Made by a program: the position numbers and the translations under genes
Origin: Diphasiastrum complanatum
Taxonomy: Eukaryota; Streptophyta; Lycopodiopsida; Lycopodiales; Lycopodiaceae
Length of the DNA: 64,000 bases
Direction of reading: 5' to 3'
Assembly: GCA_029204225.1 (NCBI GenBank)
Contig: CM055111.1
Span: 13,804,477-13,868,476 of the forward strand
Notes under the pieces: model-generated
Told to the model about the DNA's origin: nothing
Databases searched by the model: none
Seen by the model: only the letters and a program-made list of their open reading frames with translations
In this document: in pieces, positions 4,523 through 40,849 of the stretch
Numbering within the stretch: the stretch's first letter is position 1
Layout: each line of letters starts with the position of its first letter

Positions 4523-4990
4523 AATAGAGCAATAGCAAGTAGTGAATAGCAAATGAGGATGCTTCTCTTCCAAAAATGGTAGAGTTTTCTCCTTCTCATT
4601 AAGCATGGAAATAGTGTACAAATGGTGCCTTTTTATAAAATGGGGAAGGCCCTTGCCCCTCAATCTTATTGGCTAATATTCACAATGATCCTAACCATTC
4701 ATCTTGGACCCAACTTAATCCAAGGGTCCACAAAAAGTACATTAAAAATCACAAGATTCATGTGAGTCCCAATATGGACCCAACTCTAAAAAGTGATCTC
4801 TAAGTTTAAAAATGACATTGGGCCTCTAGTTTTATTTTAATTACAAGGCCCAAGTCAAGATTATTTTATTTACAACTTCAATTGCATGCTCATTGGGCCA
4901 TGGGCTTATGCACGCAGGATGCCATGACCTCGCAACACATTTTATTGGAGGATTTTATTTATTTACACTTTGTTGGGAATATCCCCAACA
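4523..4990 (-). repeat. Truncated 3' LTR
   Basis: This segment matches 10303-10768 nearly base for base. On the minus strand it begins TGTTGGGGATATTCCCAACA at 4990, as expected for an LTR end. The part matching 9947-10302 is missing; sequence left of 4523 is unrelated. Confidence 0.85.
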
Positions 4991-9946: not shown

Positions 9947-10768
9947 TGCGGGGTCGAAGATCTTTCGTTGTATAACCCTTCCGCCTGTCGACAAAGGTTA
10001 GATCACTGGATAGGTGCCTAACTATGCATAGATGCTACTTTTAGTTAATTTCCTACTTTCTCCCTTAACTCTACTCACCACTATACTACTCCTCTTTAAC
10101 TCTACTCCTCTACACTAACATTCATCATAGTTTCTGTTGAAGGGAAGGGATGGAGAAGAAGAGATTGAGAAGAGAAGAGAAAGAGAGAGAAAGAGAGTGA
10201 GGGTGGAGGTTAGCTCAATTGCTCCTTATGCTTGCTAATGGAAAAACATTCACTATGGCAAACAATAAAACATGGAAATAGAAAGCAATAGAAAACACAA
10301 CTAAGAGCAATAGCAAGTAGTGAATAGCAAATGAGGATGCTTCTCTTCCAAAAATAGTAGAGTTTCCTCCTTCTCATTAAGCATGGAAATAGTGTACAAA
10401 TGGTGCCTTTTTATGAAATGGGAAAGGCCCTTGCCCCTCAATCTTATTGGCTAATATTCACAATGATCCTAACCATTCATCTTGGACCCAACTTGATCCA
10501 AGGGTACACAAAAAGTACATTAGAAATCACAAAATTCATGTGAGTCCCAATTTGGACCCAACTCTAAAAAGTGATCTCTAAGTTTTTAAACGACATTGGG
10601 CCTCTAGTTTTATTTTAATTACAAGGCCCAAGTCAAGTTTATTTTATTTACAACTTCAATTGCGTGCTCATTGGACCATGGGCTTATACATGCAGGATGC
10701 CATGCCCTCGCAACACATTTTATTGGAGGATTTTATTTATTTACACTCTGTTGGGAATACCCCCAACA
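9947..10768 (-). repeat. 5' LTR of the minus-strand element
   Basis: The LTR runs from TGTTGGGGGTATTCCCAACA (minus strand, from 10768) to CCCCGCA at 9947, one base before the primer-binding site, giving TG...CA ends and 822 bp. The outer 466 bp match the 3' LTR copy at 4523-4990. A purine-rich tract (GAGAAGAGAAGAGAAAGAG type) lies at about 10140-10205. Confidence 0.8.
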
Positions 10769-21529: not shown

Positions 21530-22198
21530 CTACGTTTTGCTGATCAGAGATCTAAGTCGCTGCACATCCTCGGCGCTTAGCTGCAGTGCCTTCTCTAATA
21601 CAGCGTCATTGATAGGTGGGTTGGAGGCAAAGAGCGCATCTGCTACATGCGAAGTGCCCTGATTCTGACTGTTGAAGGCAGAGAAAGCCAGAGCTTTGCA
21701 GTCACCGACGTTGAGCTGGAAATGCACGAGGCCTCTGGGGAAGATGAAGAGCTCCCCGGCATTGATCGTTTGCGCGAATAGTTTATTGTCCGGCGTGCTG
21801 GTGACGAAGCCCACAAGGAGCGTGCCTTGTGCGAGAAAGAGAATCTCAGCGGCACGGGGGTGAAAATGGGGAGCTTTGAGACCGTTTGGTGCGAAGTCGA
21901 TGCGAGCTGCGGAGATCCCCTGAGTGTTGAGACCTCTAAAGGTGAGGACGTTGGCTGGTGTGACTGCTACGCCGAGTGCGTTGGAGGTATTGCCGGGATT
22001 TTGCAGAACAGAAGATGCAAAGTCTGATGCTTGCACTTGCGCAGGATCTTTGCACGAAAATCCATTCACGTGGAGCTGTTGGCCCATCACACAGAAGTCC
22101 TGTAATGGATCTTCGTCAGCAGCTACGCTTCCCGGCTGCATGGCGGCCATCGCTATGAAAACCAGGATCGGTAACCTCGTCCAAAGCGATAGTGCCAT
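21530..22198 (-). CDS. Germin-like protein
   Basis: An intact, intronless 222-residue germin-like protein, a secreted manganese-binding cupin of the cell wall; relatives have oxalate oxidase or superoxide dismutase activity, or are structural. The start is ATG 22198 (MALSLWTRLPILVF); the frame is open a little further upstream but without another ATG. Residues 1-27 form a signal peptide with a hydrophobic core. The mature part begins near DEDPLQDFCVMG, and the second Cys is in NGFSCKDP, which pairs with the first in this family. Germin box 1 is PHFHPRAAEILFLAQG, carrying the metal ligands His, His and Glu. Box 2 is GELFIFPRGLVHFQLNVG, with the fourth ligand His. Length and motif order fit the family. 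The usual PHTHPRATE is PHFHPRAAE here, a mild change. Its upstream 0.75 kb and first seven codons are duplicated at 39713-40595. Confidence 0.95.
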   Translation of the reverse strand: MALSLWTRLPILVFIAMAAMQPGSVAADEDPLQDFCVMGQQLHVNGFSCKDPAQVQASDFASSVLQNPGNTSNALGVAVTPANVLTFRGLNTQGISAARIDFAPNGLKAPHFHPRAAEILFLAQGTLLVGFVTSTPDNKLFAQTINAGELFIFPRGLVHFQLNVGDCKALAFSAFNSQNQGTSHVADALFASNPPINDAVLEKALQLSAEDVQRLRSLISKT

Positions 22199-22955
22199 GA
22201 TTTTGAATGCTTCTGCAGCAACCTCCTCCGAATACTTCAATGGATGTATCTCTCAAGCCACAAATTCAGTACTACCACGAGCCACACACAGAAGAAAATT
22301 AGAAAAGGCTTTACAAGACAGGGCAAGCAATTTAATGGAAGCGTGAACTCTGAGTGAATCAATGGTTTGCTGTCGTATCCTCCTCCTCCTCCTCCTCGCC
22401 ATTGATACTCCATGATGGCCGCCTAAGGTATCTCATTATGCAGCCGCCTCGATACCACCTAAGGTGCCTCCCCAGCAGAAGAGAATGGGAGAATGGTGTT
22501 GACTCCAAATGGTGTTGTCTATAGAACACAATGCATCTTGGTTTTCAAGGGGTGCTTTAACTTGGGACCAAAAGAAACTTTGGATGCCAAGCTAACCAAC
22601 TAATCTTATGCTAGGTTTTTCAAAAGAGAATGGTGGTGTCTCCCACAACACAGTTTGTGAGAACAAAAAATTTATGGCAACGTTTTTTTACACAGTTTGT
22701 GAGGACACAAAGTTCATGGCAACAAATTTTTACATGCACCTTCCGGTTGCCAGAAGGTACACAATTTTTTTTTTTCCTTTTTTTACATGCACCTTCCATT
22801 TGAAAGGTGCGTGTACACAAAATTTACAGCAAAACTAAACATTGAAAAAAAAAGTAACGGCAATGAATGCGGGACATTCCGCCCTTGGGCTATTGCCAGC
22901 CTCAACTGAAATGTCCTCCGTGGGGACCTTTCCCCCTATATATTGGACATACTTA
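22199..22955 (-). promoter_or_regulatory. Upstream region of the germin-like gene (duplicated elsewhere)
   Basis: This is 5' to the germin-like gene on the minus strand. It holds a GAG/CTC microsatellite (22378-22397), two direct copies of a CACAGTTTGTGAG segment followed by ATGGCAAC (22655-22735), two small hairpins around GCACCTTC/GAAGGTGC (22736-22815) and a TATA-like TATATA at about 22936-22941. The TATA lies some 740 bp from the ATG, so a long leader or another start site is needed. The same series of elements occurs at 39713-40595. Confidence 0.5.
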
Positions 22956-23301
22956 ATTAGAAGACGACATTTTCTTGGATATCGCAATATATATTTCTCT
23001 TAAAATGTTCATGCAAGTTAGCGTACTTTCTATCATATTTGTGCTTAGAGGATGGTTGGGAATGTACAAGGTCATGAAAATGATCGAAATAAAACTATAT
23101 ATATAGTAATAATCTGAGAAAAATTATCAAGAAGAGATAGTAAATTATAACGATTTTCGTAAACTAGCTTATCAATATCAAAATGTGCAAAAAAAAAATA
23201 GTGAAAAAATACTCCAATTTCTCAGATGGAATGTCATTGGCATTCAAAAAATCCAGAAGTTTGTCGTCTGGGGACCTTGATGAACTGGTCATATTGAAGA
23301 T
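22956..23301. other. AT-rich spacer, no gene seen
   Basis: No coding frame or recognisable repeat lies here; the motif array starts at its right edge. Confidence 0.6.
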
Positions 23302-23824
23302 GATATCAGTTCAGCGCGCGTGAATGAATCCAATCGGGAATGCTTGAACAAGACGCGCATTAATTCGATTTTGAAGAGGCTGATATAGGTTCCAACGCGT
23401 GACAATGATAAACTTATGGTCGTAAGATGAAGGCGTGCGTCGATTCGATATTGCGTATCACAAAGGAGTTATGAAAAAAGAATTTTGAAATCTCATTGAG
23501 TCAGGTGGTTCCCATATTTATAGGCCTTTCATGATAATCACAACCATAAATTTGTCAAGAAATCAATAGAACTCTGGGGCCTATATTTGTCGACCAATCA
23601 AATAAACACAGCATTGTACTTGTGTCGGAATATAATAACTGGTCTATCATTAGCCTTTTCGAATCATCATTAGCCTAGACCCACCAATATTCTTAAAATA
23701 TCAAAGCATTAATGTTCATCGTAATCCATGCCTTGGAATTCCACACGTGTTTATGAGGGTAATAATTACGAACGACGAGGGTAATAATTACAGATGCTTT
23801 GCCTATTTAAGTGCAAACAAGACG

Positions 23825-23998
23825 ATGAAAAAAATATTTCTAAGTTCTATATTCTTCATAGCTTTGGTCTTTATGGCCTTTACCTTGGCATGTTTGGTTT
23901 TGTTGCGACAAAGATCCTTTCTAATTATCTTTAAACAAATCCAAACATGCCAATGTAAAGGAAATAGAGACCAAAGCTATGAAGAATACAAGACCTGA
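23825..23998 (+). CDS. Small hydrophobic ORF overlying a foldback
   Basis: A 57-codon frame from ATG 23825 starts MKKIFLSSIFFIALVFMAFT, which looks like a signal peptide or membrane segment, and ends CKGNRDQSYEEYKT. A TATA-like TATTTAAG lies 21 bp upstream. Most of it coincides with the inverted repeat at 23850-23988, so the frame may be incidental to a hairpin transcript. I recognise no family and rate the coding potential low. Confidence 0.2.
   Translation: MKKIFLSSIFFIALVFMAFTLACLVLLRQRSFLIIFKQIQTCQCKGNRDQSYEEYKT
23850..23988 (+). ncRNA. Candidate hairpin transcript (54-bp stem, 31-nt loop)
   Basis: Arm 23850-23903 and arm 23935-23988 are inverted copies, 54 nt each with five mismatches, around a 31-nt loop. 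Each arm includes TTCATAGCTTTGGTCT or its complement and GGCATGTTTGG or its complement. Length, stem quality and an upstream TATA-like box fit a young plant MIRNA-type or siRNA-generating foldback. No known microRNA is recognised. A transposon end structure is the alternative. Confidence 0.45.
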
Positions 23999-24680
23999 AC
24001 AAACGATATCGGTTCAGCGCGCGAGGCTTAATGCACTGGAAGACACTTCAACAAGGGCACGCGCTGATCCAATATCGCGGTACCGCAAATTTGATATCGG
24101 TTCAACGAGCCCCATATCAGAATGATCACTTCTCATACTGGTGGTGTGCGTCGATTCACTATCGTATCTGAAAAAGGACCTCAAAATGATGAAAATAGGA
24201 TCTCAAAATTTTTCTGATATTTATGGCCTATCCTAGTCAATCATAGCCATACATTTGTCAAGAAATGAATTGTAGTCTGGGGCCCTTTAATGTCCTCTAA
24301 TCATTGTACCTGTGCCATACTAGTCTATAATTATTGTCCATAATTAGCCTTTTCATTTAATCATTAGTGATGACCCATGACCGTATTCTGTGCTTCAATA
24401 TTCACGAGGGCAATCATTTCGGATTTTTGCCCTATATAAACACAAGCTCGATGGTTAAGAAATTTTACTTTTAGCATCAGCATCAGACCAGCACAAATTA
24501 GATGAGACATTGGTTCAGCGCGTGACCCAATCAAGATAGTTATGTTGCACAATCCCGTGCGCCCATTCGCTATCGCATACTTTCAGACTTTTTTGTCTGA
24601 TATCGGTTCGGCTCGCTTGATCTACTTTTTGCAACTGAGGACCTTTATACGCGCGCACTGATCCGATATTGTGTCTTCCA

Positions 24681-25151
24681 ATGGCCCGCACGAAGCAAAC
24701 TGCACGGATTCATCCTGGAGGTGTCCCAATGCAAGGAGGCCGCCATGGAAGTCCACCACTGCCTCGTCCACAACCACCTCCTACTAGGCATAGGGGAAGA
24801 CCACGAGACCCGCCATGGCTGAAAGATATCCGAAAGCTACAAAAGACAAACAATCTTTTGATTCCAAAAGCTCACATACAAAGATCAATCAGGTAGGTAA
24901 CAAGAAGTCTCTCAACAGATGTGAGAGGGACAGACACAACAAATGAAGCTCTGCACACAGCCTATGAGGATTTTCAAAATTGTGTTATTGCAGCTGTTTA
25001 TACTAAGCGGGTGACTATCATGCTGAAGGATTTCAATATTGTGTACAGGCTATGGAACACATATGACAAATTTGCTGAGTACTTTAGACCAGCTCCATTC
25101 TCTCCTCCAAAACCCACTGTAGAAAAAAAAAATGAAAGCAATTTCAACTGA
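24681..25151 (+). pseudogene. Histone H3 / CENH3-like intronless gene with one in-frame stop
   Basis: The frame begins MARTKQTAR, the H3 tail start, then diverges (IHPGGVPMQGG and a Pro/Arg-rich stretch). The fold region reads LKDIRKLQKTNNLLIPKAHI then QRSIR, a TAG at 24894-24896, and VTRSLSTDVRGTDTTNEALH, EDF and TKRVTIMLKDFNIVYRLW. Against H3 the TAG falls exactly at the Glu of the R-E-I motif, so a single GAG-to-TAG change explains it. NLLIP, T.EAL, EDF and KDF are features of plant centromeric CENH3 rather than canonical H3. About five residues are missing in the loop before TKRVTIM. The C-terminus is extended by NTYDKFAEYFRPAPFSPPKP. Lack of introns suggests a retrocopy or transposon capture. 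It would sit in nucleosomes if functional; this allele would stop early. Confidence 0.7.
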
Positions 25152-25169
25152 CCTGACTTGTATTTCGGG

Positions 25170-25495
25170 TACAGAGCGGGGGTGTCTCAAAAAAGAGGAG
25201 GTCTCTCGGCAGTCCTCAGAAAGCTAGAGAATTTTCAAAGCATGATACTTCTTCACCTAAATCTCCTCCAAGGTCCCCTTCTTCTTCTCCTCCAGTATCT
25301 CCTCCTAAATCTCAATCTCCTTCTAAATCTCAGTCTCCTCCTAAATCACAGTCTCCTTCTAAATCGCAGTCTCCTCCTAAACTCAGTCTCCTTCTCCTTC
25401 TCCTAAAGATTCCTCTTCTCTTAAATCTCCTTCTTATATTCCTAAAGATTCCTCTCCTCCTAAAACTCCCATATTGTGTTCCCCCCTCCAGCATC
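25170..25495 (+). pseudogene. Ser-Pro-Lys repeat segment
   Basis: In one frame the translation is a run of S-P-P-K and S-Q-S-P-S-K units (SPPRSPSSSPPVSPPKSQSP and onwards), about 40 residues, preceded by KKRRSLGSPQKAREFSKHD. Such segments occur in linker-histone-like tails and DNA-binding linkers. After a frameshift near 25380 the Ser/Pro/Lys composition continues (SPKDSS, SPPKTP). The stretch lies between the H3-like frame and the next ORF and may have linked them in one protein before decay. Confidence 0.45.
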
Positions 25496-26102
25496 AGGTG
25501 AAGAGTTAGACAATTTTGTAAATTTAATGATTGAGACATATGGAGTAGTGCATCTACGTGTGATGGATATAGGTAGGAGCACTACTTCAAAAGCTGTGAC
25601 CTATTTATATGGAGTCCATGGCATCAAAGGAGCTAGCTCTCGGCCTACCAAAATCATTCAAGAAGTGTGGCAAGGTGTGCCAAGACAATTACCTCCTGAA
25701 TCCCAATGCATACCGAACAAGGAGCACCTCATCTCCCAAGAGTTCGCACAAAAATATCCACCCAAGGAGCGCGACGATTACATCTTGCCAAACCTTGACC
25801 AATGCAAGACTCACAAGGAAGCCGTAAAGCTCTTGGATCCACAACTTGTCTGGCCCCATCAACTCTTCTTTCAAAGCAAAACATCCATGGAACGGTATCT
25901 TGATGCACCGGCATATACGCGCATCAATCCATACTATTACCCGGTGGCGCATAGAGAACCATTTCCTACCAAGAAGCTGAAAAATAAGATCTATTGGCCC
26001 AAGCTTATAGGTGTAAACATAGACAATCCATCAGATGATATGACTACCAATTGTCGTGTATTTCACCAAAAATACCATGGCAACCCGGATTGCGATTTGT
26101 AA
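25476..26102 (+). CDS. Unidentified ORF of about 200 residues related to the Gypsy accessory block
   Basis: The frame is open from at least 25476 to TAA 26102 and reads EELDNFVNLMIETYGVVHLR, VWQGVPRQLPPESQCIPNKE, then DYILPNLDQCKTHKEAVKLL and REPFPTKKLKNKIYWPKL, ending HQKYHGNPDCDL. Similarity resumes in shifted frames to about 26375: FADNCSLVAFLARLNGFGIG, then FDINKPL, then INVARLYYRAALTLALHVD. The last part matches FDPNKAL..VARVYYRAAF at 5190-5330 on the minus strand. I do not recognise the domain. It sits between the H3-like/SPPK region and a polypurine tract with an LTR start, so it is best seen as the 3' coding part of an LTR element. No ATG near 25476 is certain; translation may begin upstream. 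Confidence 0.5.
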   Translation: MFPPPASGEELDNFVNLMIETYGVVHLRVMDIGRSTTSKAVTYLYGVHGIKGASSRPTKIIQEVWQGVPRQLPPESQCIPNKEHLISQEFAQKYPPKERDDYILPNLDQCKTHKEAVKLLDPQLVWPHQLFFQSKTSMERYLDAPAYTRINPYYYPVAHREPFPTKKLKNKIYWPKLIGVNIDNPSDDMTTNCRVFHQKYHGNPDCDL

Positions 26103-26483
26103 TATTTTGCGGATAACTGCAGCCTGGTAGCCTTCTTGGCTAGACTAAACGGATTTGGAATAGGGGACTCCCACCAATTGCCTTCGATATCAACAAGCCC
26201 TTGTAGACTGAAACGAATCACATCAATGTTGCGCGTCTTTATTACCGAGCAGCCCTCACTTTGGCATTGCACGTCGATATGGTGGAGCTATGGAAAATCC
26301 ATGGATTCCTACAAGGCATGCTCCAATATTACAAACAACTGCCCTTCCTCAATAAATTACGCTAATAGATGATGGAAGATATCGACAACAAAATTTACCA
26401 ATCTTGACAACAACAATCTCACCTCCAAGAAGCTCAAAAAATCCAGGACGAAAAAGCTTCGATTGGTGTGGGACCACCAATCC

Positions 26484-26497
26484 AATAAGAAGGGGGG
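26484..26497 (+). other. Polypurine tract
   Basis: AATAAGAAGGGGGG directly precedes TAA and an LTR-like start TGTTAGCAAC at 26501. This is the expected arrangement for second-strand priming of a plus-strand LTR element whose coding part lies to the left. Confidence 0.65.
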
Positions 26498-26500
26498 TAA

Positions 26501-27581
26501 TGTTAGCAACTATGCAAACATAGAAAAAATATAAAAAGAGAAATAAAACTCCGTGGCATGTGTTTTGTAAGACCACGTATGAGTATTTGTCAATAAACTT
26601 CCACCATGGCATGTGTTTTGTAGGTCCATGGGTAGAAGCTTAAAATAATATAATAACTTTAAACTTAAAATTAGAACTTAGACTTAAGAAACCTAAGCTT
26701 AGAAATATTTGTCTTAAGTTACCTTAAGTAAGAAACTTTTGAAGTTCTAAGTCCTAAGTTAGAAGTTCTAGAATGGCTAGTTTTAAATTCATCTCATAAG
26801 CTAGTGGATACTTATGGAAGACCCTTCTTGCTATAAAAGGAGAGGTATTTGCCATGTACACAACACTTTTGAGATTATGCTAAATTGCTCTCTCTTGAGA
26901 TTATCTTGCTATTTCACTTGTGTTGCATTGGATGGTGCATATCTTGAGGGAAGGTGCTCGGGCCTCCTCTTGCCTCCTTTCATTGGTTTTTATTGTGGCA
27001 TGCTTTTGATTGTTTATTGCTTAGTATTAGCCGCAATCTCCTTCATTTCCTTTTGGGTGTTAGACTAGAATTAGCTTAGCCAACTTGCTAGTTGGGTACT
27101 GCCTTAGCAAGGTTTTAATTAGTTGTATTCACGTTTTCGAGCACCAGTTGGGAAGCCTTGGTGCTTCCTTCTGTTCTTGTTTGTTATTTCCATTTGAAGC
27201 TTTGGTAGGTTCTTAAAAAGTGGATGATCCTCTCTACACTATACTACACCCATGAGTAGATCTAGCCATCGAGTAGACTAGAAATACTTCCAACAATCTC
27301 TTATGGTTTTCTCATGATATCTTGAGTTTCTATGTGTAGAATGCTGATTTTCTTGTTGATCTAACTTTCACATGTGTGGAGTACTGTATTGTACTTCTAT
27401 TGTATGGACAGGGACAATACTAAGTCATATCTAAGTGGTTATGATCAAATCTTGATGCATTTCTAAATGCTAGCATGCATAAAGTAGTGATTTCTATGTT
27501 GTTGACGAATCTAGATGTGTGATCCAAATTGGCTAAAGATCATTGATGAACTAATAGTGTTTTGATCTCTGATTTTTCACA
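26501..27581 (+). repeat. LTR-type sequence(s) between polypurine tract and primer-binding site
   Basis: The left edge, TGTTAGCAAC after a polypurine tract, marks the start of a 3' LTR. The right edge, TTCACA before TGGTATCAGAGC, marks the end of a Copia 5' LTR. Either this is one 1.08-kb LTR shared by two adjacent elements, or two LTRs abut; a possible first end is CCAACA near 27295. A TATA box (CTATAAAAGG, about 26830) lies inside. A palindromic CTTAAG/TTCTAAG-rich patch occupies 26640-26770. No second copy exists in the window to fix the borders. Confidence 0.55.
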
Positions 27582-27597
27582 TGGTATCAGAGCAGGT
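27582..27597 (+). other. Copia primer-binding site (initiator tRNA-Met)
   Basis: TGGTATCAGAGCAGGT is the standard plant Copia primer-binding site, complementary to the 3' end of initiator tRNA-Met. It directly follows the CA end of an LTR. Confidence 0.9.
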
Positions 27598-39712: not shown

Positions 39713-40595
39713 AGTCCAAAGTGATAGTGCCATGATTTTGAATGCTTCTACAACAACTTCCTTCAAATACTTCAATGGATGTATGTCTCAAGCCACAAAT
39801 TCAGTACTACCACGAGCCATACATAGAAGAAAATTAGAAAAGACGTTACAAGACAAGACAAGCAATTTAATGGAAGCGTGAACTCTGAGTGAATCAATGG
39901 TTTGTTGTCGTATCCTCCTCCTCCTCCTCCTCCTCGCCATTGATACTCCAAAGCCTGCTTGATAGTACGTTTTATCTTTGTAGTATGTACTATGTAGAGC
40001 TGGGCTGGTATGCTCATCCCATTATCGCACTCCCTCTAGATACCACCTAAGGTATCTCATTATGCAATCATCTCGATACCACCTAAGGTGCCTCCCCAGC
40101 AGAAGAGAATGGTGTTGACTCCAAATGATGTTGTCTCTAGAACAGACTGCATCTTGGTTTCCAAGGGGTGCTTGAACTTGGGACCAAAGAAACTTTGGCT
40201 GCCAAGCTAACCAACTAAGCCAAGCCTACTAGGTTCTCCGTAAGAGAATGGTGCGGTCTTCCACGACACAATTTGTGAGAACAAAAAATTTATGGCAAAA
40301 CTTTTTTACAGCACAATCTGTGAGGACAAAACATTTATAGCAAAAAAAATTTACATGCACCTTTCGGTTGCCAGAAGGTACACATAAATTTTTTTTCCTT
40401 TTTTTACATGCACCTTCCACCCAGAAGGTGCGTGTACACAAAATTTACAGCAAACAAAACGTTGAAAAAAAAAAAAGTAACGGCAGTGAATGACGCCTCT
40501 TCGGGACATTCCGCCCTCAGGCTATCGCCGGTCTCAACCGAAATGCCCTCCATGGAGATCTTTCCCTCCTATATATTCATATGATTGGACATACT
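39713..40595 (-). pseudogene. Duplicated germin-like promoter and first codons
   Basis: This matches 22190-22955 closely. It begins (minus strand) with ATGGCACTATCACTTTGGAC, i.e. the same first residues MALSLWT as the germin-like gene, and then loses all similarity at about 39713. Upstream it keeps the CTC/GAG microsatellite (39908-39930), the GCACCTTC hairpins (40355-40435) and the TATATA (about 40572). It carries about 80 bp (39957-40035) absent from the other copy. The rest of the gene is absent, so it is a promoter copy without a gene. Confidence 0.85.
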
Positions 40596-40849
40596 TAATG
40601 TATTATTTGCCACAATATGCATCATCATGTGACTGGTTAATACATGTATTTTGGATCTTATTGAAACTGCGGATAATGGATGATGGATGATCACTAAGTC
40701 TGTCTCGTGGGACCTTGATGCTTCTTCACCATTGTTTAGGGAAGCTCCTTGAGGTTTCCCTCCAATTTCCTGCAGGTTTTAAGAGTTGGCAGTTTTTCTA
40801 ATATGAAAAAAAAAATTATTGACTCAATAAACGTATGTAACCCTTTACT

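Follow-up and report, generated by a model that had tools for sequence, protein, structure and literature searches.

A DNA element with terminal inverted repeats carries an H3/CENH3-like histone gene in the genome of Diphasiastrum complanatum

The DNA analysed here, referred to as the window, is a stretch of 64,000 nucleotides from Diphasiastrum complanatum (Lycopodiaceae; assembly GCA_029204225.1, contig CM055111.1, positions 13,804,477 to 13,868,476, forward strand). Positions 24681-25151 of the window hold a reading frame which starts MARTKQTAR and continues through a Pro/Arg-rich stretch into a histone H3 fold. The frame lies within a truncated copy of a repeated DNA element, whose family we call family A, and is followed by the remnant of an unrelated retroelement. 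The features of this region are as follows.

22953..25538, plus strand: truncated, decayed copy of the histone-carrying DNA element, family A (blastn, protein match)
23302..24670, plus strand: three sets of paired inverted GATATCGGTTCAGCGCGC-type motifs upstream of the ATG (pairing partly by eye)
23850..23988, plus strand: near-perfect hairpin of 139 nt (MFE -79.1, z -13.6)
24681..25151, plus strand: H3/CENH3-like reading frame with one in-frame TAG at 24894-24896 (translation, Pfam, PDB phmmer)
24681..24722, plus strand: H3-type tail MARTKQTARIHPGG with Ile in place of K9 and K4 kept (translation; compared over copies)
24810..25055, plus strand: histone fold, alpha-N to alpha-3, with a 5-residue gap in alpha-2 (profile and alignments)
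25157..25498, plus strand: Ser-Pro-Lys-rich linker, here in a different frame, in frame with the fold in copies L022, L026 and L031
25470..25538, plus strand: C-terminal domain of family A, start only, the match stopping at 25538 (tblastn)
25701..27296, plus strand: unrelated retroelement remnant with a 3' ORF, a polypurine tract (PPT) AAGAAGGGGGG at 26487-26497 and an LTR from 26501

The window frame is certainly a member of the histone H3 superfamily. With the TAG read as X it scores 42.9 bits (E=7e-11) with the Pfam family Histone (PF00125), whose cut-off is 26.4 bits, and in a phmmer search of the PDB its residues 1-124 align to H3 at E 1.1e-12. Scored separately, the two halves of the frame gave 0.053 and 0.012, below the Pfam cut-off. 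A first-pass annotation of the sequence had described the MARTKQTAR start, the histone fold, a single in-frame stop and about five missing residues, all of which are borne out. The missing residues correspond to the gap in alpha-2, which was found in the window copy alone among 25 aligned rows; since the other 24 lack it, the window copy is a worn one. We considered and rejected an intron at the TAG, as reading of the sequence showed no workable acceptor. Structure predictions were poor (pLDDT 47.7 and 35.1), and a Foldseek search with the first model returned two nucleosome entries at E 0.68 and 2.2, neither of them significant. Codon-usage log-odds separated the frames poorly.

We simulated the neutral decay of an H3 gene to the divergence of the window copy and scored the outcome for at most one stop and no frameshift. 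This outcome was reached in 20 of 300 runs without indels, in one of 300 at 0.02 indels per substitution and in none of 300 at either 0.05 or 0.1; an earlier indel-free simulation scored by the same criterion gave 6% of 400. As neutrally decaying genes rarely stay this open, most of the change probably arose while the protein was still in use.

On the left side, element DNA begins at 22953, the start of the blastn matches to copies L032, L026 and L033 (23193 for L029), and this is where the likeness to a second germin-like promoter copy stops (22957). The matches continue as a gapped run to 25363-25469, and the protein match to L022 extends to 25538 (L022 residues 221-243 against 25470..25538, tblastn E 5e-4). 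Neither terminus of the element was found near the window copy within 8-9 mismatches. The GATATCGGTTCAGCGCGC-type motif was also found in the 10 other copies scanned, and in eight of these again about 1.3-1.45 kb downstream, and part of the hairpin matches a palindrome which lies about 2 kb downstream of the histone in other copies. The hairpin underlies a short frame whose start, judged by eye, resembles a signal peptide, and its minus strand reaches 52 bits with Rfam MIR837, below the gathering score of 117. Elsewhere in the window, a germin-like gene (by eye) is located on the minus strand at 21530-22957, and its start and upstream region recur at 39714-40599 with 93% and 83% identity. Direct repeats at 4526-4990 and 10304-10768 (95.7% identity) are probably the LTRs around gypsy-type frames on the minus strand (type by eye).

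On the right side, an ORF at 25464-26102 shares the frame of the histone, and a naive reading of the window would fuse the two. This reading did not hold. From about residue 80 the ORF belongs to the retroelement family, DNA homology to which starts at 25680-25712 and continues into the LTR; as the DNA from about 25701 onwards is that of a different repeat family, what adjoins the window histone in frame is a junction. The retroelement family has 11,466 first-look candidates in the genome and its 3' ORF matches no Pfam family. We found no bacterial or phage relatives of the neighbouring ORF. An exact search of viral contigs for the PPT/LTR start found none, with one exact motif hit otherwise. 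Beyond the remnant lie copia-type frames with a primer-binding-site match at 27582. The Ser-Pro-Lys repeats noted earlier as fused or adjacent to the histone are indeed adjacent, in another frame in the window and in frame in other copies.

Using the 84-residue second half of the window frame as query, we searched the host genome (1,744,706,496 bases) and obtained, from 4002 first-look candidates, 150 scored matches, the window included, a copy count in which small contigs may partly duplicate one another. All 149 other places match at E<=8.6e-24, so that the histone likeness of the window frame is beyond chance. By hand count, the matched 84 residues are free of stops at 100 of the 150 places and contain a stop at 50. 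The sequence of L026, VTRSLSADVRWTVTAIEALHTAYEDFQVKFFSDTVVAAVHAKRVTIMPKDFNIVFRLW, is an example of another copy. These 100 stop-free places, from family A alone, could pass as host genes in annotation, and in genomes of this kind element copies may overwhelm any tally of CENH3 or H3 variants.

The selective constraint on family A was estimated from 25 aligned rows representing 24 distinct loci (L010 and L025 are the same place). Twenty-three rows were ungapped over the 100 codons compared, which cover most of the fold and about 20 residues beyond, the window copy and L019 being excluded; 20 copies were left once near-duplicates had been removed, and stop codons were omitted. Over the 190 pairs the medians were 0.088 for dN, 0.279 for dS and 0.31 for dN/dS, a pairwise ratio that blends selection before insertion with drift after it. 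Differences at the three codon positions numbered 2094, 1568 and 3188, with the third position in excess. The histone fold of family A has evolved under purifying selection. As many of the copies are dead, selection on the active lineage was probably stronger than a ratio of 0.31 indicates.

To delimit the repeated unit, 12 family A copies were taken with about 5 kb on each side, some being extended further. Homology among the copies reaches well past the histone gene. The right terminus, GGGCCCATTTTGAGNTCTAATATCCCCTAATG, has the identical end base in four of the 12 loci (L024, L026, L031, L032), with unlike flanks; in the remaining eight the right end is truncated, diverged or beyond the stretch read. 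The left terminus, CATTAGGRGAAATATGGGCTCAAAATGGGCCC, has the identical end base in three of five copies extended upstream (L032, L033, L029), the other two (L026, L027) being broken before they reach it. Left and right ends form imperfect inverted repeats starting CATTAGG, and L032 carries both, measuring 10,455 bp end to end. In the whole genome the right terminus occurs 494+473 times with up to two mismatches and the left terminus 633+584 times with up to three, counts which take in shorter derivatives and elements possibly without the histone; the reversed-pattern controls gave 0 in both cases. Four end pairs were matched by place and strand among the matches listed, at about 7.0, 6.9, 15.4 and 10.5 kb. 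A target-site duplication of 2-12 bp was absent from all four paired ends (L032, L064-L071). T opens the right flank in six of seven read, and A closes the left flank in four of six.

Fixed inverted-repeat termini mark the element as a DNA transposon with terminal inverted repeats (TIRs), and a Pfam scan of 10 element proteins did not reveal the RT family that an LTR retrotransposon would be expected to contain. The first-pass view of a histone copy in mobile DNA thus stands, with element termini known from other copies. At L025 the histone is flanked by a pair of direct repeats (about 0.7 kb, 72%); no such pair was listed at the other 11 of the 12 large loci. Upstream of the histone and on the same strand are a coiled-coil-like frame and frames with LDESEI, HLAGDLKTLK, HPCLYC and LHAEVRIIEKLIYL, and additional element frames lie on the opposite strand. 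From residue pattern alone, the frames with these motifs are taken for a putative DDE-type transposase gene. In the element frames scanned with Pfam, the piece of the putative transposase included, nothing exceeded the cut-off for this gene, and a profile search of the PDB gave one hit at E 0.96. Neither a hAT transposase nor a hAT dimerisation domain was found by Pfam in the 10 element proteins and the transposase piece, which are partial frames, nor did the element frames scanned give a MULE transposase match. L022 contains, at about -2364 to -1976 relative to its histone match, a small element whose CATTAGAGG-type ends resemble the termini of the histone element; non-autonomous relatives therefore probably exist.

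A second genome query, the fold of Arabidopsis CENH3, gave 13 top places at 58% identity, three of which were read and are canonical H3, and at least 137 further places at about 48-56%. Ten of the latter were read and fell into three further types, B (L059-L061), C (L052, L053, L056, L058) and D (L054, L055, L057). With Pfam Histone, one copy of each scored 84 (B), 98.7 (C) and 104.4 bits (D), and the family A copy L031 scored 54 bits, all above the cut-off given above. Beside the C copy L053, at L062 and about 3 kb upstream of the histone, lies a putative transposase that shares 61% identity with the family A one (E=7e-90), and another piece of it was found at L058 (C; E=7e-27). At the B and D loci no putative transposase was seen within the 1.6-1.8 kb read. 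In an unconstrained tree, support was 99 for A+B, 95 for A+B+C and 41 for A+B+C+D, which supports one lineage comprising A, B and C; D may be separate, and the idea of all four as one supported group was dropped. Type D keeps an H3-like C-terminus. In L055 and L057 the fold ends a long frame; judged by eye, what precedes it there is either coiled-coil-like or a long run of prolines. The three canonical host H3 read have Tyr 41, in agreement with a lycophyte; Phe 41 of H3 is reported to appear first in ferns (PMC5809374).

In L022, L026 and L031, open frames of 378, 351 and 405 residues, respectively, lead from the fold through the SP/K-rich linker into a further domain. Among these three the tail shares the open frame of the fold in L031 only, and the tail of L026 contains a stop. 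In the B copy L059 an open frame of 363 residues extends from MARTKQT across the further domain. The family therefore has the C-terminal extension that had been proposed, and the intact genomic copies of the fused form whose search had been recommended were found in L031 and L059, both open from the tail through the linker.

At 20 of the 24 distinct loci of family A we found a tail that reads MARTKQT[AT]R and then Gly, Ile or Val, in two of them in a frame other than that of the fold; K4 is kept in 19 of these 20 tails and K9 in none. The tail scan found no tail at the other four family A loci or in the three D copies. All three B tails keep K4 and have Leu in place of K9. Three of four C tails read MDRRK.T[KR]R[ED] by scan, and a like stretch is present in the fourth, L053. 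As 300 shuffles gave best scores of up to 6, it is pattern and position, and not the score, that support the C tails (scores 5-6).

The further domain of A and B has a D.V segment and then, beyond a putative intron, an HW motif. The domain of B is related to that of C (27% over 118 residues, E=2e-14). Between A and B no relationship was detectable (E 2.7), although columns in common are seen in an alignment, and the idea of a further domain common to A, B and C was accordingly dropped. In a PDB profile search SENP2 accounted for four of 11 weak hits (E 0.51-1.5, not significant). In Pfam scans C48 was absent from the matches of B and C (E<=10) and of A (E<=1), and no Cys of the His-Asp-Cys triad of peptidase C48 was located in the domain. 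On the strength of the D.V and HW motifs, the further domain may faintly resemble a SUMO protease of the Ulp1/SENP type.

Is the element histone derived from CENH3 or from H3? In every tree the best position was on the CENH3 side, with the element histones next to plant CENH3, and H3 was in no case rejected as the alternative. AU values for the H3 alternatives were 0.097-0.098 in the tree with the window copy, and the alternatives had 0.298 and 0.183 in the tree with five family A copies. In the tree with A to D, grouping the elements with H3 was worse by 7.9 log-units (AU 0.076), and grouping D with H3 gave AU 0.060. One loop was trimmed in the window-copy tree. At columns diagnostic for H3 versus CENH3, the window copy has 8 CENH3-like, 4 H3-like and 8 other residues; with the better-preserved family A copies the CENH3-like excess reverses (6, 8 and 7 in five copies). 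Database scores favour H3: canonical H3 ranks first among the best 60 matches listed, although a CENH3 query of the PDB returned no plant CENH3 at E<=1e-30, and full-length phmmer gave 51.4 bits for H3.1 against 44.5 bits for Arabidopsis CENH3. The comparison with H3 and CENH3 proposed earlier thus placed the frame in the H3 superfamily without singling out CENH3 as nearest relative.

The residues that had been called CENH3-like agree in part. LLIP, the T after the first helix and KDF match plant CENH3 sequences. T.EAL does not line up with the corresponding CENH3 motif. CENH3 is set apart from H3 by a longer loop 1 and by Trp or Tyr there in place of Phe. Loop 1 has the length of H3 in A and D, is one residue longer in C and four residues longer in B. 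A loop-1 Trp is present in the family A aligned rows except L008 (Ser) and the window copy (Gly); the residue is Trp in B, Phe in C and Val in D. The tail of plant CENH3 has lost K9, that of Arabidopsis being MARTKHRVTR, so the loss of K9 in the element histones may be inherited. The CENH3 of the host itself, which the first-pass annotation had wished to see compared, was not found in the genome searches; the three candidates read (C22:38025235, C11:15454797, C20:35715431) are H3-like and nearer to host H3 than to CENH3. A histone match at G000:C20:13898974-13899087, about 30 kb past the right edge of the window, has 61% identity to a CENH3 piece. We favour a CENH3 origin, as yet unproven: the claimed CENH3 identity has the tree on its side, and against it stand the unrejected H3 alternative (AU 0.076) and the database scores.

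We conclude, with a probability of roughly 0.8, that the window frame is a dead family A fragment of a multi-gene TIR element which carries an H3/CENH3-like gene. The element carries this gene, consisting of tail, fold, SP/K-rich linker and further domain, along with a putative transposase gene, and the histone gene is a kept part of the mobile DNA. The copies, the fixed ends, the dN/dS of 0.31, the neutral-decay runs, the association with the transposase and the tails in both A and B argue for this reading. The captured or retroposed copy suggested at first is accordingly not a lone one; it belongs to a gene that a multi-copy DNA element has kept for long. We give hardly any credence to an isolated CENH3 pseudogene, captured or retroposed, in fusion with the ORF of a retroelement. 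Such a pseudogene would account for the intronless frame, the neighbouring ORF in the same frame and the adjoining PPT and LTR, but that ORF belongs from about residue 80 to the other family with its 11,466 candidates, and the histone family has termini of its own. Capture of the histone inside an LTR element was rejected since the PPT and LTR belong to the unrelated family. Viral histones exist, and several frames on both strands accompany the histone, as they would in an endogenous large DNA virus bearing a histone gene. A viral origin is nevertheless very improbable: the inverted-repeat ends occur at about 1,000 places, the Pfam scan of 10 element proteins showed no viral family, and the histone frame and neighbouring ORF have no relatives in viral contigs, in a scan which detects close relatives only.

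What the element might gain from a histone is a more tentative matter. The gene may derive from a CENH3-type or, less likely, an H3-type gene captured ahead of the divergence of A, B and C; the element would use the protein. Paired with host H4, it could form nucleosomes on the DNA of the element or at its targets. Such nucleosomes would keep the K4 end of the H3 tail and could not be methylated at K9, and might thus escape H3K9-based silencing; the further domain, faintly SUMO-protease-like, may help. We regard evasion of silencing through K9-less nucleosomes as the likeliest of the mechanisms, while it may well prove wrong. Equally tentative is the broader proposal, drawn from sequence comparison, that a lineage of TIR transposons has long encoded its own centromere-type histones as working parts, using them to form nucleosomes refractory to silencing through H3K9 or to gain access to particular chromatin, perhaps aided by a fused domain that resembles a SUMO protease.

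Alternatively, a CENH3-like histone loaded at or near centromeres could steer insertions there or mark new copies with centromere-type chromatin. The best trees on the plant CENH3 side, the loop-1 Trp in A and B, the longer loop 1 in B and the CENH3-like LLIP and KDF agree with centromere targeting, but the affinity to CENH3 falls short of significance (AU 0.076 for grouping with H3), family A has a loop 1 no longer than that of H3, and the matches listed are spread across many contigs; we consider it unlikely. Rather more doubtful still is that the histone is a hitch-hiker, copied with the element and useless to it. There is a precedent in Dothideomycete fungi (PMC3538342, PMC6710886), and the dead window copy and the stops at 50 of 150 scored places would fit, but a median dN/dS of 0.31 over 190 pairs with its third-position excess, and the retention of the histone in A, B and C and of the K4 tail, speak against passive transduplication. 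Evasion of silencing, if it occurs, would matter for the following reason. Transposons usually face silencing built on host histones, and an own histone with K4 and without K9, if used, would act directly on this silencing layer. The element would then offer a chance to study how histones of the centromeric type originate and come to serve other purposes.

Of the cases we found, fungal hAT transposons with copies of ordinary H3 come nearest. hAT elements with histone H3-like genes are described in Pyrenophora tritici-repentis (PMC3538342) and in Pseudocercospora, Cercospora and Sphaerulina, in which the H3 copies are RIP-inactivated except for the original (PMC6710886). These elements share with ours an H3 gene inside a TIR DNA transposon amplified to tens or hundreds of copies, and full elements measure about 9.5 kb in P. 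fijiensis. In contrast, the element described here resides in a plant, has no hAT match in the frames scanned and no 8-bp target-site duplication. Its histone is nearer to CENH3 in the best trees, lacks K9 and is extended by a linker and a further domain, and the element shows diverged subfamilies and a dN/dS of about 0.3. With plant CENH3 (Arabidopsis, rice and maize) the element histone shares LLIP, the T after the first helix, KDF, R-W-T at loop 1 (family A) and a tail with K4 kept and K9 lost. It differs in being element-borne and of high copy number, in the H3-length loop 1 of A, in lacking the C-terminal GG..PW and in having a further C-terminal domain. Plant TIR transposons are known to capture genes, among them Mutator elements with ULP1-like genes. 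The likeness lies in the captured host genes and the possible SUMO-protease-like domain; here, however, the captured gene seems to be a permanent component, and neither a MULE match nor a target-site duplication was found. In the main text of a review of gene capture in plants the word "histone" is absent (PMC13317346). No plant or CENH3-like element-borne histone was among the matches listed in our literature search, whose scope was mostly outside subscription papers. Fungal DNA transposons reportedly carry a TET/JBP dioxygenase (PMC12730594), and these resemble the present element in bearing a gene that acts, or here would act, on host marks, with a histone here in place of an enzyme that targets DNA methylation.
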